Origin: a virus | Length of the DNA: 35,836 nucleotides | IMG/VR virus record: IMGVR_UViG_3300046003_007347 | Location: 1 to 35,836 of that record | Reading direction: 5' to 3' (one strand) | In this document: positions 11,530 to 24,993 of the stretch, piece by piece | How positions within the stretch are numbered: position 1 is the stretch's first letter | Layout: each line of letters begins with the position of its first letter | The notes under the pieces: model-generated | Seen by the model: the letters and a program-made list of their open reading frames with translations, nothing else | Told to the model about the DNA's origin: nothing | The model's database searches: none | Program-made: the position numbers and the translations under genes

Positions 11530-12873
11530 TTATTTTAATTTAATTAAATTGTTATAATTTTTACCATATGAAACAGAAGATTGGAAACCAAATTCTTCTA
11601 TTATATTTTTTATTTCTTTTAAGATCTGTTTATCGTCCTCACTACTATAATCAATTAACATAGCATCATAGGAATATAATATACATTTACTTTTTTTATT
11701 ATCCAAATATTTTAAAAGGGAAGATAAAGTTTTTACATTATAATATGTTTCTGCTGATTGGATTATGTAATTATATACTTTTTGAGGTGTTGAGTTTTGG
11801 ATTTCTTTTAATAGTAGTTTTCTTCCACCGATAAGTTCAACAAATCCTGTTTTTTGTATTTCTTCCCATAAATTTTTAATATATTCCTCTAATTTGGACC
11901 AAAAGGGAACGTGTTTATATTGAGGGAAAACGCCTCCATTCATCATTTTAAATGAAAGTTGTTTTGACTTTTTATATTCTTCTTCTGTTAATTCTGTTTT
12001 ATTAAAATAAAATTTCCCTAATTCAGTATGAATATCTCCTTTAGGTAATTCAAAATTAATTAATTTAGCACTTAAATATAGATGATATGCTCTAAAATCA
12101 TATTCAAATAAATAATCTTCTTTTGGAATTATAAATTCTCTTGTGTTATCATTTTTATTTAAAGCAGCAAAATTTACTCCATTAAATGAGTTAGAAGGAC
12201 GGGTTGTAAAATTATATAAATTATATTTTGAATATATTTTATTATCTTTTATTGAAAATTTAGGATATTTTAGTTGAAAATGTTGATTAAAAACATCGTT
12301 ATTTAATGATATTCCCTGTTTTTCAATACAATACATGACCCACACATATTCATTATTATAAAACGTGTTAATTAATTGATTTCCAATATAATCTTGAATA
12401 TAATAATAGATAGATTCTTGTTCTTCATAATGTTTAGTAATTGGAATAAAAGAATTTAATTTAATATGAGATTTAAAAGAACCTTCAATATAATTAGCTA
12501 CAGTTTGTTTATAATCAGGTATTTCTAATTTAAATATAGTTTGTTCTAAATGGAGTAAATTTATATCTATAACTTTATTATTTTTAAATTCTTCCCCTAA
12601 AAAATATAATAATTCCTTTTTATCTAAACAATAAATTTGTTTATGTTTTAATAAAAATTCCTTTATTAAATTTAAATCAATATCAATACCATCATTATGA
12701 TTAATAGGAAACATAAACCCCTTACTATCTCCTTCAGCTCTATAATATATAAGTGAAATTGAGGATAATATGGGGTGATAATTATGGTTTAGAGGTATTA
12801 CATTAATATAACAAGATTTATTATAGGATAATTTATTTAATTGTTCTTCGTTTTCTATAATCCAAAATGACAT
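11530..12873 (-). CDS. Divergent family A DNA polymerase-like protein
   Basis: A 447-residue protein whose C-terminal half matches the order of family A polymerase motifs. TTRPSNSFNGVNFAAL (223-238) resembles the T-x-R-L-S-S...N-L-Q-N region. Motif A is EYDFRAYHLYLSAKL with Asp259. GDIHTELGKF is followed by motif B KKSKQLSFKMMNGG with Lys304 and Phe308. IGGRKLLL and VYNYIIQSAETYY resemble the later conserved helices. Motif C is LYSYDAMLI with Asp403. Both catalytic Asp are kept, but the motif A Glu is His264, the motif B Tyr is Asn, and the motif C His-Asp-Glu reads Tyr-Asp-Ala. Residues 1-170 occupy the place of the exonuclease domain but lack a clear DxE motif. It is much shorter than PolI (about 930) or T7 polymerase (about 700). 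It lies upstream of SSB, recombinase and helicase genes. Confidence 0.75.
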   Translation of the reverse strand: MSFWIIENEEQLNKLSYNKSCYINVIPLNHNYHPILSSISLIYYRAEGDSKGFMFPINHNDGIDIDLNLIKEFLLKHKQIYCLDKKELLYFLGEEFKNNKVIDINLLHLEQTIFKLEIPDYKQTVANYIEGSFKSHIKLNSFIPITKHYEEQESIYYYIQDYIGNQLINTFYNNEYVWVMYCIEKQGISLNNDVFNQHFQLKYPKFSIKDNKIYSKYNLYNFTTRPSNSFNGVNFAALNKNDNTREFIIPKEDYLFEYDFRAYHLYLSAKLINFELPKGDIHTELGKFYFNKTELTEEEYKKSKQLSFKMMNGGVFPQYKHVPFWSKLEEYIKNLWEEIQKTGFVELIGGRKLLLKEIQNSTPQKVYNYIIQSAETYYNVKTLSSLLKYLDNKKSKCILYSYDAMLIDYSSEDDKQILKEIKNIIEEFGFQSSVSYGKNYNNLIKLK

Positions 12874-19298: not shown

Positions 19299-19308
19299 TA
19301 TAAATATT
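19299..19308 (-). promoter_or_regulatory. Candidate late promoter upstream of the baseplate gene block
   Basis: The gene-direction sequence TTTAATATTTATATAAAAAC contains the AATATTTATA motif, 25 bases before the ATG at 19273. It overlaps the last codon and stop of the tape measure gene, so a new transcript could start exactly where that gene ends. Confidence 0.5.
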
Positions 19309-21634
19309 AAACTTTTCTATTTGCTATTGCAAGTGGTATTAATAATTCTTGAGAAACTTTATTCCCATCTAAATTAACAACCATACCTCTATTTATTGCT
19401 GATACTACATTATCTAATTTATTTATCATAACATCCATTTTGTTTCCTAAAGAGTTTGATAAAGTAGTTATACTACCATTATCTTTTTCTTTAAATAAAT
19501 CAGTTCCAGCTGTAATTCCATTCTTATTTCCAACAAATGTATCTTCAGAATCCATTTGTATTGAACCTTTAGGACCAGAAACTACTAATCCTCCAGAAGA
19601 ATCTATTTCTCCATCATCTATACCAATAATACTTTTCCCTGATTTTACCATAGGAGCATTTCCTAATGCTGTTGTATAACCATCCCAAGAACTAGCTGTT
19701 TTTGAATAATCAAAACTTCCCCCGGAAAAAATACTTACTATACCTTTTAATGTATCCAAAATAGCATTAACTATTACTCCAACCATTTTAAACGCAGGAG
19801 CCATTCCATCGCTAATAAAACTTATTATAGGTCCTAAAAGTGTAAATATTTCTCCAAATATATCTAATACAGGCATTAATGGTTCAGCTATTTGAGTAAA
19901 TATATCTTGAAGTTTTGACATAGTAGCTTGGAATCTTTCTTGTGCTGATGTAGATTTTAATTGATTAGATAATGTTTCGTTTCCTAATTCGTTTAAAAAT
20001 TGTGCTTCTCTTCCTTGGGCTTGAGCTAATGCTAGTTTTTCTTTTAAATCCCCAATATCTTTAGCTCCTACTTTTCTAATAGCTTCTTGTTCCATTAACA
20101 TATTAGCCATTTCTTCTCTGGACATTCCTAAAGCTTTGGCTTGAGCTTCTTGTTGGATAACATTCATTTTACCATATGTGGCAAAAGTTATATTTTGATC
20201 ATTAAGTTCTTTTGCTACTCCACCTAAATCACCCATTAACGCAGCATAACGTGCTCTTTCTAAGTTTAATTGTTTACCAGTGATTACTTCAGATTCAAAT
20301 TCAGAAGCAATAGAACTTTCAATATCTAATAATCCATTAGATATACTTTCTATTTGTTTTAATTCAAGACCTAATTTTTTGGCTTCAAATGCTGCTTTAC
20401 CTAATTCTGCTGGGTTTTTTGAGTAATTTAATAATGTAGCTTTAGATGTATTATTAATATCATTTAATAATGCTTTTTCATTAATAGCTAATTTATTTTT
20501 TATATTTTGAAGTTTAACTTGACCTAAGTAAGAAGCAGCAATATCTTTACTAGATTTATTTGTTATTAAAGATAATTTTGATAAAGTTGTGGCTGATTCA
20601 ACAGAATATCCAGCTTGTTGAGTTAATTCTGTAAAGTTAACTAACATTTCTCCACTTAACATAGTATTTGTACCCAAAGAATTACTTAAAGTCATGAAAG
20701 CTTCATTGATTTTTTGTGCATCAACAAATACATTACCTGTATTATAAGCAATAGCATTTACTTGATCATTTAAACCCCTTGCTTCATTATATGATATACC
20801 AAATTGTTTTGCTATTTCACCACTAGTTTTATCTAAACTCATCATAGCATCAACTAACATAGCTATTAATGCTAATGGACCTAATGATTTGGCTAAATTT
20901 GCTCCAAGATTTTTAGTTAAATTACCTGCTGTTTTTAAATTATTAACTAAATTAGTCCCCATTCCTCCATTATTCCCACTTTCTTGTTGAGATTTAACTA
21001 ATTCTTTGGCATATTCTCTGGTTTTTGATATAGCATCATCTAATCCAAGTTGATCTGATAGTCTTGAAAATCCTGTCTTTTTTAATATTTGCTGTAATCC
21101 ACCCGCAAGTGCATTGGTTAATCCTAATGCTTCATTTATTTTATTTTCTAATTCTAATCTTTCTTTTAAAATATTAATTAGTCTATCATTTTGTATTAAA
21201 TTATCTTCAGTAGCGTGTATTTGTTCTTGAGTTAATTCCCCAGATTTAATTGCTTCTGATAGTAAACCTTTACTTATTGTTGCTTTTTTTAATAGTTTTT
21301 CTATTTGATTTTTATCTAAAGTTAAAATTTCACTTTGCTCATTTTGTAATTGTTGAGTAATAGATACTAATTCTCTTGTAGTTTTTCTCGATTTTAATAA
21401 TTGAACGTTTGAATTAGTTAAATCATCTAAATTCGATTCTAAAATAGATTTTAAACCATTTAAATCATTATTTATTTCATTTAATTCATCCCCCCATTGA
21501 ACAAATGCTTCAGTAATTTCATTAGCATAAGATAAAGGATCATTAGACCAAAGATTATTTATTTTATAACCTAATTGATCTGCTAACTTTTGTAAATCAA
21601 GTAAATCTTTTTTAGCTTTTTCTTCTGGAGTCAT
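19307..21634 (-). CDS. Tail tape measure protein
   Basis: A 775-residue protein that fixes tail length and is ejected ahead of DNA. It is largely alpha-helical, with long heptad-like stretches at residues 1-200 (LDLQKLADQLGYKINNLW, then LLKKATISKGLLSEAIKSG) and Ala/Gln-rich helices at 440-560. There is a hydrophobic segment at about 243-263 (LGPLALIAMLVDAMM) and a second around 580-640 (PLMPVLDIFGEIFTLLGPII, then MVGVIVNAILDTLKGIVSIF), typical for membrane-active parts of tape measures. It lies directly downstream of the gp26/gp51-type pair with overlapping frames, the usual place of a tape measure gene. By the rough rule of about 1.5 angstrom per residue, the tail would be of the order of 115 nm. 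Confidence 0.88.
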   Translation of the reverse strand: MTPEEKAKKDLLDLQKLADQLGYKINNLWSNDPLSYANEITEAFVQWGDELNEINNDLNGLKSILESNLDDLTNSNVQLLKSRKTTRELVSITQQLQNEQSEILTLDKNQIEKLLKKATISKGLLSEAIKSGELTQEQIHATEDNLIQNDRLINILKERLELENKINEALGLTNALAGGLQQILKKTGFSRLSDQLGLDDAISKTREYAKELVKSQQESGNNGGMGTNLVNNLKTAGNLTKNLGANLAKSLGPLALIAMLVDAMMSLDKTSGEIAKQFGISYNEARGLNDQVNAIAYNTGNVFVDAQKINEAFMTLSNSLGTNTMLSGEMLVNFTELTQQAGYSVESATTLSKLSLITNKSSKDIAASYLGQVKLQNIKNKLAINEKALLNDINNTSKATLLNYSKNPAELGKAAFEAKKLGLELKQIESISNGLLDIESSIASEFESEVITGKQLNLERARYAALMGDLGGVAKELNDQNITFATYGKMNVIQQEAQAKALGMSREEMANMLMEQEAIRKVGAKDIGDLKEKLALAQAQGREAQFLNELGNETLSNQLKSTSAQERFQATMSKLQDIFTQIAEPLMPVLDIFGEIFTLLGPIISFISDGMAPAFKMVGVIVNAILDTLKGIVSIFSGGSFDYSKTASSWDGYTTALGNAPMVKSGKSIIGIDDGEIDSSGGLVVSGPKGSIQMDSEDTFVGNKNGITAGTDLFKEKDNGSITTLSNSLGNKMDVMINKLDNVVSAINRGMVVNLDGNKVSQELLIPLAIANRKV

Positions 21635-21658: not shown

Positions 21659-21685
21659 AAAGGTCCCTATTTTTTAGAGACCTTT
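21659..21685 (-). terminator. Hairpin terminator overlapping the end of the gp51-like ORF
   Basis: An 11-bp stem (AAAGGTCTCTA/TAGGGACCTTT, one G-U pair) with an A5 loop. It covers the last codons and the TAG stop of the 105-residue ORF. The following bases TTTAATATTTATA give a poor U-tract and coincide with a candidate promoter. Termination may therefore be partial. Confidence 0.55.
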
Positions 21686-21984
21686 GAATTATATTGATTG
21701 ATGGATGATGGTGGTTTAGATATATTAGATACTTTTGTTGTGTTAGTAACTATATTATTTTGTTCTTCAATAGCTTCATTCTTTTTTCTATATCTTTCCT
21801 CTATTTTTTTATATGTAAAATTTCTTAACCAGATAGGAAAATTATAAACTGTAGCCCAATCATATCCTTGACCATATGTAACTATTTCATCAATTTGAGA
21901 AAATAATTCTACTCTATATTGTTGATTCAGGCCAAAAAAAGTTAAGATTAATTGGTATACGGATGCCCTCCACGTCATCCTCAT
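21667..21984 (-). CDS. gp51-like / tail assembly chaperone second frame
   Basis: 105 codons can be read from ATG 21984, but the frame is open only from 21996 and overlaps the preceding gene by 71 bases in another frame. The sequence (FGLNQQYRVELFSQIDEIVT, then WATVYNFPIWLRNFTYKKIE) recalls the short gp51-type proteins encoded next to gp26 in T4-like phages, with a Lys/Glu/Asn-rich disordered tail. It is more likely expressed as a C-terminal extension of the upstream protein by frameshifting at the U7 tract than from its own ATG, which has no A-rich leader. The tape measure gene follows immediately, so the product may chaperone tape measure assembly. Confidence 0.75.
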   Translation of the reverse strand: MRMTWRASVYQLILTFFGLNQQYRVELFSQIDEIVTYGQGYDWATVYNFPIWLRNFTYKKIEERYRKKNEAIEEQNNIVTNTTKVSNISKPPSSINQYNSKVSKK

Positions 21985-21996
21985 TTTCCTTATATA
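21914..21996 (-). other. Probable programmed frameshift site (U7 tract)
   Basis: Within the overlap of the two frames the message reads AAC TTT TTT TGG CCT in the first frame; the U7 tract is at 21934-21940. Slipping forward one base after the second UUU re-pairs tRNA-Phe perfectly and continues GGC CTG AAT in the second frame, as would a -2 slip. A -1 slip would not enter that frame. The fused product would be about 337 residues: 249 from the first ORF and 88 from the second. The layout immediately before a tape measure gene is that of the G/GT chaperone pair of long-tailed phages. Confidence 0.65.
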
Positions 21997-22681
21997 TTAA
22001 GTCAACACCTGGTGAGACTCTCTTTATTTCATTTCTTAATTCTCTACTATCAATAGCTAACAATCCTTTATCAACAAATTCACGAATAGTTTTAGTATCT
22101 CTTTCACCTTCTACTGATGTTATGATGTATTTTAAACGTGTAGATAATTCTGGTTTTGGTTTGTTTGGAAATAATTTATTTAATCCTTCAATTTCTTTTC
22201 GGATTTTTTTCTCATCTCCATGTGTTAATAATTTGAATGTTATATTAGTTCCTGTATTAGGTAAGGTAAAGGTAAATTCGTTAGTTTTATCTTCATTTAA
22301 ATCTTTTTCATTAATTAATTTATCTTTTAATTTAGATAAATCTACTATCTTATCAACGTAATTCCCATTCTCATTAATAGCTTTAATTTTATAATCTTTT
22401 CCATATCCTAAAATACGAGCAGCTATCAATAAAGCATCTTTATCTCCTTGAAGTAAATCATCTACATTAATTTTAGTAATTAATAATGATTCAATTAATT
22501 TATCATAAACAGTACCATTAGCTATATAATTTTGGTTTGTTAAAATATCTTCCTCCAAAGCAGTCATATATTTCATTTCAACTTTACCTGATGATAATGG
22601 ATTGTCTTTTGGATATAGAAGACCTTGAGAAGGTAATTCTATTGTTTCTGTTGGTAGTTTAAATTTTGGTTCTTGACTCAT
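21914..22681 (-). CDS. Baseplate hub subunit, gp26-like / tail assembly chaperone first frame
   Basis: A 255-residue protein. It starts KFKLPTETIELPSQGLLYPK and continues SGKVEMKYMTALEEDILTNQ, a strongly conserved opening of gp26-type proteins in T4-like phages. The rest is mixed alpha/beta with Lys/Glu-rich helices and a late segment KYIITSVEGERDTKTIREFV. It ends PINLNFFWPESTI in its own frame, but the U7 tract 7 codons earlier allows a switch into the following frame. gp26 is known as a hub assembly factor in T4. Here position before the tape measure suggests a chaperone function. The gene is preceded by a terminator and a candidate late promoter. Confidence 0.82.
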   Translation of the reverse strand: MSQEPKFKLPTETIELPSQGLLYPKDNPLSSGKVEMKYMTALEEDILTNQNYIANGTVYDKLIESLLITKINVDDLLQGDKDALLIAARILGYGKDYKIKAINENGNYVDKIVDLSKLKDKLINEKDLNEDKTNEFTFTLPNTGTNITFKLLTHGDEKKIRKEIEGLNKLFPNKPKPELSTRLKYIITSVEGERDTKTIREFVDKGLLAIDSRELRNEIKRVSPGVDLIYKENEDDVEGIRIPINLNFFWPESTI

Positions 22682-22713: not shown

Positions 22714-22748
22714 ATAAAAAGAAAAGACTCAACATTTCTGTTAAGTCT
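22714..22748 (-). terminator. Rho-independent terminator after the tail tube gene
   Basis: A 10-bp stem AGACTTAACA/TGTTGAGTCT (one G-U pair) with a GAAA tetraloop is followed by TTTCTTTTTATTA in the gene direction. It lies 22 bases after the stop of the tail tube gene. Confidence 0.88.
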
Positions 22749-22770
22749 CTTTAAAATATATAAGTATATT

Positions 22771-23259
22771 TTAGTAATTTAAAATACAATAATCCATAGC
22801 TAAAGTTAATTGGATTTCGTTTGCTGTATCTCCACTTGCCCAATCGAAATCACCAAAATTTGCTGTTTTAACAAATGCACCTTTAATAATCCATTCCGAT
22901 ACTACATCTCCTACTGGTCCTAGGAAATTTAAAACAATATCTTTTTTATAAAAATCTGAATAACCATCTCTACCTGTTACTGATTCATGAGCTAAACGAG
23001 CCCACTCCATAGTTGCTTGTGCTCCAGAAGGTGCGATGGGGTTGTATAAAGATATATTCATATCATTCCAATTAACTTTACCTTTAATTTTACGGTAAAC
23101 ATTAATATGGTCTAATTTAATTTCACCAGCATCAAATGATGGTGCAGTTACTTTTTTAATTAAATATGATGGAATACCATCTATATACATAATATGACGA
23201 TTAGCTACGATAGGTTCGAAAGCAGTAAACATCATCTCGTTGGTTGAAAGAACAGCCAT
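22771..23259 (-). CDS. Tail tube protein, gp19-like
   Basis: A 162-residue major tube subunit that stacks in hexamers inside the contractile sheath. It has the beta-sandwich layout of gp19/Hcp-type proteins: an N-terminal arm (STNEMMFTAFEPIVANRHIM), then strands IDGIPSYLIKKVTAPSF, then LDHINVYRKIKGKVNWNDMN, and a C-terminal pair (WIIKGAFVKTANFGDFDWAS, then IQLTLAMDYCILNY). Length equals that of T4 gp19 (about 163). It is encoded directly after the sheath and flanked by terminators on both sides, so it forms its own transcription unit, consistent with the high copy number needed. Confidence 0.93.
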   Translation of the reverse strand: MAVLSTNEMMFTAFEPIVANRHIMYIDGIPSYLIKKVTAPSFDAGEIKLDHINVYRKIKGKVNWNDMNISLYNPIAPSGAQATMEWARLAHESVTGRDGYSDFYKKDIVLNFLGPVGDVVSEWIIKGAFVKTANFGDFDWASGDTANEIQLTLAMDYCILNY

Positions 23260-23340: not shown

Positions 23341-24993
23341 TTAAATATTAGTTCCTGTTGGATTTATATTAAAGTCTAATATAACAAATTCAACTGTTTT
23401 TGTAGGTTGGATAAATATTTGTCCTATTAATTGATTTCTATCTATTACATCACTAGTATTATTAGTATCATCCATTACAATTTTATAAGCATATAAACCA
23501 TCTCTTTGTTGAATTGAATCTAAATATGGTCTTATTTTAGCTTGAAAACTATTTCTTGTAGCAATTGTATTTTGTTCGAAAACAAATGTATTACCTACTT
23601 GTCCTATATATCTTTTTAATTCAATAAGTAATCTTCTTACATTAACTCTATCTAAAGCAGACGCTTTAGTTTGTAATGTTTTTTGTCCATATATTACAAT
23701 TCCTTGTCCTGGGAAAGTAGCTATTGGGTTTACTTTTCCTGCTTGTAAAGTATCTCTATCGGTTGGAGATAATTTTCTTTCAGTTTGAACTACACTAATA
23801 CCACCTCTTTTAAATCCTGCTGGGGCAAACCAAGGAGCTCCTGCTCTATCATTATATTCATATACAGCAGGTACTATTGTAGATGGTGGTACCCAAACTA
23901 ATTTTCCTGTTTGTGGAGAATTTACTTGAACCCAAGGATAATATGTTGCTGCATAACTTGAATCGATCTCACTAGCTTCTGCTACTGCTGTTAAAATATT
24001 ATCTCCTTTATCTGTTACATCTACTATAGCAATTGAATCCCCTCTATCAATACAAGTTTGAATTAAAGTCGCAACTACAGAACTATTTGTAGGTTGTGTA
24101 GCTCCTGGTGCAGTTAATATATCAAATTGAAATTCATCTTTATTAGCTAAAATAGCAAATGATGATGTATAAGCACTATCTGGAGTACCATATATAGAAG
24201 ATAAATTACCTGTTGCTCCACCAAAAGTTCCTGATGCTGCTACTGGTATAGAGGCAGTATATTGAGATTTTGCAACTCCATTGTTATCAAAATAATTTAA
24301 AGTTGGTGTATTAACTTGTTTTACTCTAATATATTTACTTTTTATTGAATAATCACCTTCTATTTGAATATAATTATCAGTTAATACTTTTGATTGATTA
24401 CCAATTACAGCTTCTATATAATTTGTTGAATTTGGGTCTAAAGATAAATTAGTCCATGACTCTAAAATAGATTTAGAATTAGTTAAATCATTACCTTTTC
24501 TAATTAAAAGATTAAAAGTACCTGATGATGTATTTGGAGAAGTTATTTCCCATCTTAAATTATCAGCAGAACCACTTACTAAAGCTCCATTAGTAGTTTC
24601 AGAACCGGAACTATTCATTATGGCTCCAGCAGATAATGTTTCTAATAAAAATGATGCAGATGCTGTAGCTTGGGAATTTAATATATTTGTTGAAGTTGCT
24701 GGTAAAAATGAACCAGAAACTACTCTAGTAACTAATAATCCTGTACCTCCTTGTTGGAAGTAATTATAAGCAGATATAGAAGTTAAATATTCATTTATAG
24801 TTGATCCGCTTTCAAATGTACCTCCAAATTTATTTAAATAATCACTATAAGAAGTAACTAGTGTTGGTATATTTACAGGACCTTTTACTGTTGGACCTAC
24901 AATAGCAGCTCCTGCTATTTGAGGACCTTGAACAATCGGTGATTGGTCATTTTCTCTGGTTAATATACCAGGGGATAATAAAGTTTCTGTCAT
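23341..24993 (-). CDS. Contractile tail sheath protein, gp18-like
   Basis: A 550-residue sheath subunit that contracts to drive the tube through the envelope. The N-terminus LLSPGILTRENDQSPIVQGP followed by AAIVGPTVKGPVNIPTLVTS is the classic sheath opening. It contains the extended handshake arm and a variable protruding domain (about residues 90-330, Ser/Thr/Asn-rich). The conserved C-terminal core contains QGIVIYGQKTLQTKASALDR, then VNVRRLLIELKRYIGQ, then FVFEQNTIATRNSFQAKIRP, and ends in an extended strand. Length is below T4 gp18 (about 659), due to a smaller protruding domain. It has its own candidate promoter and terminator. Confidence 0.95.
   Translation of the reverse strand: MTETLLSPGILTRENDQSPIVQGPQIAGAAIVGPTVKGPVNIPTLVTSYSDYLNKFGGTFESGSTINEYLTSISAYNYFQQGGTGLLVTRVVSGSFLPATSTNILNSQATASASFLLETLSAGAIMNSSGSETTNGALVSGSADNLRWEITSPNTSSGTFNLLIRKGNDLTNSKSILESWTNLSLDPNSTNYIEAVIGNQSKVLTDNYIQIEGDYSIKSKYIRVKQVNTPTLNYFDNNGVAKSQYTASIPVAASGTFGGATGNLSSIYGTPDSAYTSSFAILANKDEFQFDILTAPGATQPTNSSVVATLIQTCIDRGDSIAIVDVTDKGDNILTAVAEASEIDSSYAATYYPWVQVNSPQTGKLVWVPPSTIVPAVYEYNDRAGAPWFAPAGFKRGGISVVQTERKLSPTDRDTLQAGKVNPIATFPGQGIVIYGQKTLQTKASALDRVNVRRLLIELKRYIGQVGNTFVFEQNTIATRNSFQAKIRPYLDSIQQRDGLYAYKIVMDDTNNTSDVIDRNQLIGQIFIQPTKTVEFVILDFNINPTGTNI

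Follow-up and report, generated by a model that had tools for sequence, protein, structure and literature searches.

A probable tail assembly chaperone pair in a T4-like myophage, with the long form likely made by +1 slippage at a U-run

The window, by which we mean the whole stretch of 35,836 nucleotides analysed here, carries a block of tail genes on its minus strand in the order sheath, tube, tail assembly chaperone and tape measure protein, with the chaperone pair between the tail tube and tape measure genes. The sheath (23341..24993; phrog_23, E 1.1e-73) and tube proteins (22771..23259; phrog_4542, E 2.5e-20) were recognised by profile matches, and the tube gene is the upstream neighbour of a gp26-like open reading frame of 255 amino acids (21914..22681), the putative short chaperone, TAC-N. 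The tape measure protein (19307..21634, 775 amino acids) was identified by BLASTP against Flavobacterium phage immuto, whose annotated counterpart it matches with E 3e-55 and 27% identity over about 590 columns. Between the two lies ORF2, in the +1 frame relative to the gp26-like gene, open from 21996 (behind TAA at 21999-21997) with a first ATG at 21984 and a stop at 21669-21667. Only 32 bases separate its end from the tape measure ORF, congruent with the initial annotation, which had placed the pair directly before the tape measure gene, as for lambda G/GT. Terminator-like hairpins, found by consensus scan only, lie at 21659-21685, between the C-terminal segment and the tape measure gene, and at 22722-22751, between the tube and gp26-like genes; flanking the pair on the minus strand, they may uncouple its transcription from that of the tube and tape measure genes. 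Elsewhere within the structural module, a 447-residue minus-strand ORF (11530-12873) matches the DNA polymerase family phrog_5995 over 100 residues (E 5e-7).

The gp26-like ORF and ORF2 overlap by 71 bases (21914-21984), and both this overlap and the opening of the second frame at 21996 were found as originally described. So was the AAC TTT TTT TGG at 21943-21932, where a forward slip of one base enters the second frame. Here AAC occupies 21941-21943, its third base, the C at 21941, forming the 5' bound of the U-run, followed by F248 (21940-21938), F249 (21937-21935), W250 (21934-21932) and then CCT GAA, while reading in the +1 frame continues from GGC (21933-21931). The segment read from this GGC (21667..21933, 88 amino acids) is the predicted C-terminal domain, TAC-C, of a 337-residue long chaperone, TAC-NC. 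ORF2 had been said to lack an A-rich leader before its ATG, which was incorrect: ttaatatataaggaaaATGaggATG precedes the ATG at 21984 and is A-rich and Shine-Dalgarno-like, containing AAGGA, and a further in-frame ATG follows at 21978. These two starts may additionally give rise to a C-part protein of its own.

The 255-residue product matches phrog_150 (E 2.5e-10) and PF12322, the latter with 21.9 bits (E 1.6e-4), just under the curated cutoff of 24.5 that the homologues from RM378, LIS04, GXN1 and LR756508 exceed. An AlphaFold2 model, covering the 0-frame product only, reached a pLDDT of 92.5 and a pTM of 0.87, and its top two matches among 999 PDB chains in VIA-align were 3klu (YqbN, a relative of the PBSX/skin-type tail chaperones; Z 5.9) and 2ob9, the tail assembly chaperone of HK97 (Z 5.1, rmsd 5.3, 84 aligned residues); scores of 5 to 6 are modest, and the other matches listed had Z of 4.0 and below. 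The predicted viral structural neighbours include T4-like hub assembly proteins. ORF2 alone returned nothing significant from Pfam and PHROGs. A profile of the C-part compared with that of the C-parts from -1-shifting phages plus the gp51 C-terminus gave an hhalign probability of 94% and a score of 39.6, versus 9.6 +/- 2.1 (maximum 14.7) in 60 column-shuffled controls. On this profile evidence the C-part is homologous to the C-parts of -1-shifting T4-like phages. The gp51 C-terminus alone scored 16.4 against the shuffled maximum of 14.7, too weak by itself; it does align with the -1-type C-parts, and PF12322 and phrog_150 each recognise T4 gp26 as well as gp51.

To collect relatives, IMG/VR was scanned with the gp26-like protein, with its alignment and with the homologues from Microcystis phage Mel-JY01, LR756508, Listeria phage LIS04 and RM378, complemented by tblastn on phage records, which together yielded 228 distinct junctions. 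Beyond the 0-frame stop, the +1 frame stays open for 60-108 codons in 217 of the 219 distinct relatives that are not truncated downstream, versus a median of 10 codons for the -1 frame in the same set. Intersecting the last upstream +1-frame stop and the 0-frame stop over 226 loci confines the switch to 17 nt, from -5 to +12 relative to the first base of the second Phe codon, and the conserved residues of the C-part (GLT..YR) start right at the slip. Past the 0-frame stop, 42 independent pairs differ at 405, 251 and 939 sites in +1 codon positions 1, 2 and 3, a third-position bias that indicates protein-level selection on the C-part.

The slip site itself reads TTT TTT TGG in 195 junctions, TTC TTT TGG in 11, TTT CTT TGG in six (immuto included), TTT TTT TAC in five and CTT TTT TGG in three. 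Single cases include TTC TTT CGT in Streptococcus phage GXN1, TTT CTA TTC in LR756508, and TTT TTT followed by AGT, CAC and CGT in LIS04, SP-15 and L310, respectively. The P-site codon is TTT at 219 of the 226 loci, CTT at six and CTA at one. Among pairs that share the amino acid, codon identity is 1.00 for both Phe codons, the most synonymously constrained in the gene, as compared to a gene mean of 0.57, a level of conservation that is not due to chance. The following Pro and Asp/Glu codons show 0.97 and 0.98, respectively; these two, unlike the Phe codons, are however translated in both frames. Conserved U-tract and frame relation, which the initial annotation had proposed to check by alignment, are what the relatives display, the Phe-Phe codons being identical in all such pairs. 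Overall, the comparison shows that both frames are coding, that the switch occurs at the U-run and that the site is under selection, which strongly supports the suggested programmed +1 join of the two ORFs. The codon after the slip (21932-21934 in the window) is TGG in 215-216 of the 226 +1 loci, with no Trp at the -1 sites, and slow decoding of UGG may stimulate the slip. A scan for conserved RNA structure around the slip gave no signal, the mean z of -0.6 being like that of other regions.

We then weighed other routes to the same arrangement. The two frames could be joined by a -2 shift with one extra Phe, as in phage Mu, whose tail chaperone uses -2 (PMC5009743), and at the window site, TTT TTT TGG, the P-site tRNA-Phe could re-pair on the U7 equally well by moving two bases back or one base forward. 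Re-pairing at +1 is possible at all 226 sites, whereas the 12 distinct TTC TTT sites, from two lineages (the L289 group and phage GXN1), cannot re-pair two bases back, where TCT would be met. Only two of the 226 sites would permit a tandem -1 slip. Because of the 12 TTC TTT sites, +1 is favoured and a -2 shift appears unlikely; for the window itself the direction would then be +1, not -2. The TTT CTT sites were also considered as evidence against -2, and were dropped since an allowed first-position G-U pair makes them non-discriminating. Equally, the long form might not arise by slippage on the ribosome but by that of RNA polymerase, as T runs can cause transcriptional slippage. Seven T is however short for such an event, a non-T base flanks the run in nearly all sites, and variants whose T runs are just three or four bases long (TTC TTT CGT, TTT CTT TGG and TTC TTT TGG) share the frame relation, which argues against a fusion mRNA and leaves it very improbable.

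ORF2 could also be an independent gene in an ordinary overlap, started from its own ATG. The two ATGs behind the AAGGA leader speak for this, and so do two relatives, L299 and L304, in which the C-part is a separate cistron with its own ATG. Yet in 80 of the 226 loci the stretch from the last +1 stop to the slip contains no ATG, GTG or TTG, and in 60 such starts remain absent until about 40 nt beyond the slip; the slip codons are kept where no start exists, and the conserved GLT residues begin at the slip, so we consider this reading distinctly unlikely. That the junction reflects an assembly or sequencing error, or a frameshifted gene in decay, is a natural concern given that homopolymers are error-prone. 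It is hardly credible here and already refuted by conservation of the site: the identical seven-T TTT TTT TGG occurs in 195 distinct junctions and in the isolates Rhodothermus phage RM378 and Microcystis phage Mel-JY01, establishing the run as genuine, and the C-part is under selection as protein.

Relatives with independent starts, which the initial annotation had set against its own reading, do exist, but as a minority. In L299 (identical to L312) and L304, both close to immuto, the separate C-part has an N-terminal extension and an ATG 2 or 8 nt after the gp26-like stop. The slip site has decayed to TTC TTG TAT in L299 and reads TTC CTT TGG CCA in L304, where a -1-frame stop overlaps the junction, so that re-initiation is needed. 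Their relatives L313 and L314 retain the +1 frame and TTT CTT TGG. We read the separate cistrons as a derived state, a natural loss of frameshifting.

Next, the base before the run was compared between +1 and -1 homologues. In the homologous gp26 of Kyanoviridae cyanophages (P-SSM2, S-PM2 and 65 environmental relatives), TAC-N and C-part are both homologous to those described here, yet the C-part is encoded in the -1 frame; the junction reads T TTT TTC in 65/65 distinct environmental sites, T thus directly preceding the U-run at every site of the -1 type. XacN1, RAS14, SCTP-2 and Melnitz likewise have their C-part in the -1 frame and a T ahead of the run; for HTVC008M the frame difference comes from phrog_150 only and is weak. 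By contrast, T precedes TTT TTT at 2 of 204 +1 loci, against about 110 expected from codon usage for the same amino acids, and AGC stands before the run 41 times despite making up only 5% of Ser codons; as related sequences are counted as independent, these flanking-base counts show consistency, not a probability. A T in this position would give U UUU UUU, that is, a -1 site and a longer run. Across all 226 loci the base before the slip pair is A in eight and T in six, A being rare although A-ending codons are common, and blocking of -1 slips does not account for that rarity. The -1 type known from T4-like phages (a T TTT TTC/TTT heptamer) was ruled out for the window, where the C-part is in +1 and the base before the run is C. 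On a tree, the three modes (+1, -1, separate genes) are clustered, requiring three changes versus 11.1 when shuffled, with the caveat that RM378 is a long branch of unsure placement; this clustering fits a single origin of +1 as well as several.

Taken together, the frame, the switch position, the codon constraint, the TTC TTT variants, the PDB matches and the homology of the C-part point towards a TAC-N/TAC-NC pair produced by +1 frameshifting. Judged from sequence comparison, we place the probability at about 0.91 that this is a chaperone locus of the lambda G/GT type in a T4-like myophage, with the long form generated by +1 slippage at the U-run; a chaperone function of the pair is what we infer. 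Normal translation would yield the 255-residue TAC-N. In a presumed fraction of the ribosomes at AAC UUU UUU UGG, where the second UUU holds peptidyl-tRNA-Phe and UGG occupies the A site, the P-site tRNA would slip forward by one base, from UUU 21937-21935 to UUU 21936-21934, and GGC would be read next, giving the 337-residue TAC-NC with its C-terminal domain. By analogy to lambda gpG/gpGT, many TAC-N and few TAC-NC may then coat the product of the tape measure gene that follows, with the C-domain recruiting tube subunits.

The analogy to lambda gpG/gpGT would lie in the position before the tape measure gene and in a minor-fraction extension of a short chaperone; it is drawn from layout, and lambda differs in shifting by -1. 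The RF2 gene (prfB) has a +1 site, CUU UGA, and there, as proposed here, the P-site tRNA slips forward onto an overlapping triplet ending in U. An RF2-like CTT T occurs at six sites of the +1 set, including that of immuto, although our sites have a sense codon, UGG, in the A site and, on informal inspection, no obvious internal Shine-Dalgarno sequence. T4 gp26 and gp51 belong to the same PF12322/phrog_150 family and differ in being two full, divergently transcribed genes that require no frameshift. In Campylobacter phage CPt10 (L094, FN667789) there are likewise two gp26-family genes, as for T4 26/51, one of them apparently fused to a C-part.

Vladimirov and colleagues are said to have identified T4-like tail chaperones in 2022. 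That work (Vladimirov, Gautam and Davidson, Virology 566:9-15), as represented in PMC10885494 and PMC12846349, already proposed the link of gp26/gp51 to G/GT; in PMC10885494 it is the reference for some T4-like phages having separate short genes and fused long genes, and in PMC12846349 for polyT -1 signals in T4-like TAC-N. The pairs so described resemble ours in the gp26-like short chaperone with a C-terminal extension before the tape measure gene and, in some groups, in a U-rich slip site, T4 having separate short (26) and long (51) genes. As cited they shift by -1, whereas here the shift is +1, with T as the fourth base in UUU U and a base other than T ahead of the run. More generally, tailed phages use -1, -2 or +1 at tail chaperones, with lambda at -1, Mu at -2 and occasional +1 shifts, T4 having been the exception (PMC5009743). 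The G/GT link is thus known, as are +1 tail chaperones in other phages, and of the earlier proposals the likening of gp26/gp51 to G/GT stands as a published one, while ORF2 would correspond to the C-terminal part of gp51 only, not to the whole protein. Similarly, frameshifting here in some T4-like phages was published in 2022; the large +1 lineage in T4-like phages and the flanking-base direction rule appear new, so far as the available literature shows.

Frameshifting in tail chaperone genes is a textbook example of recoding; we know of no general motif for +1 frameshift signals. The published gp26/gp51 link limits the surprise of the present locus. The analysis does correct annotation, as deposited genomes miss the C-domain: in immuto, only a 36-residue hypothetical protein is annotated inside the C-part (L082 3351-3461; MW353176.1 150607-150717), with no frameshift, and in Listeria phage LIS04 an unannotated gap between the hub and tape measure genes (L085 3212-3441) contains the +1-frame C-part. 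With more than 200 natural +1 sites, 65 homologous -1 sites and two relatives that lost the shift, it can now be asked which bases set the direction. Since homologues use a backward slip or separate genes, a simple sequence rule for slip direction becomes testable, and we give even odds to shift direction being an evolvable trait that can be read from sequence.
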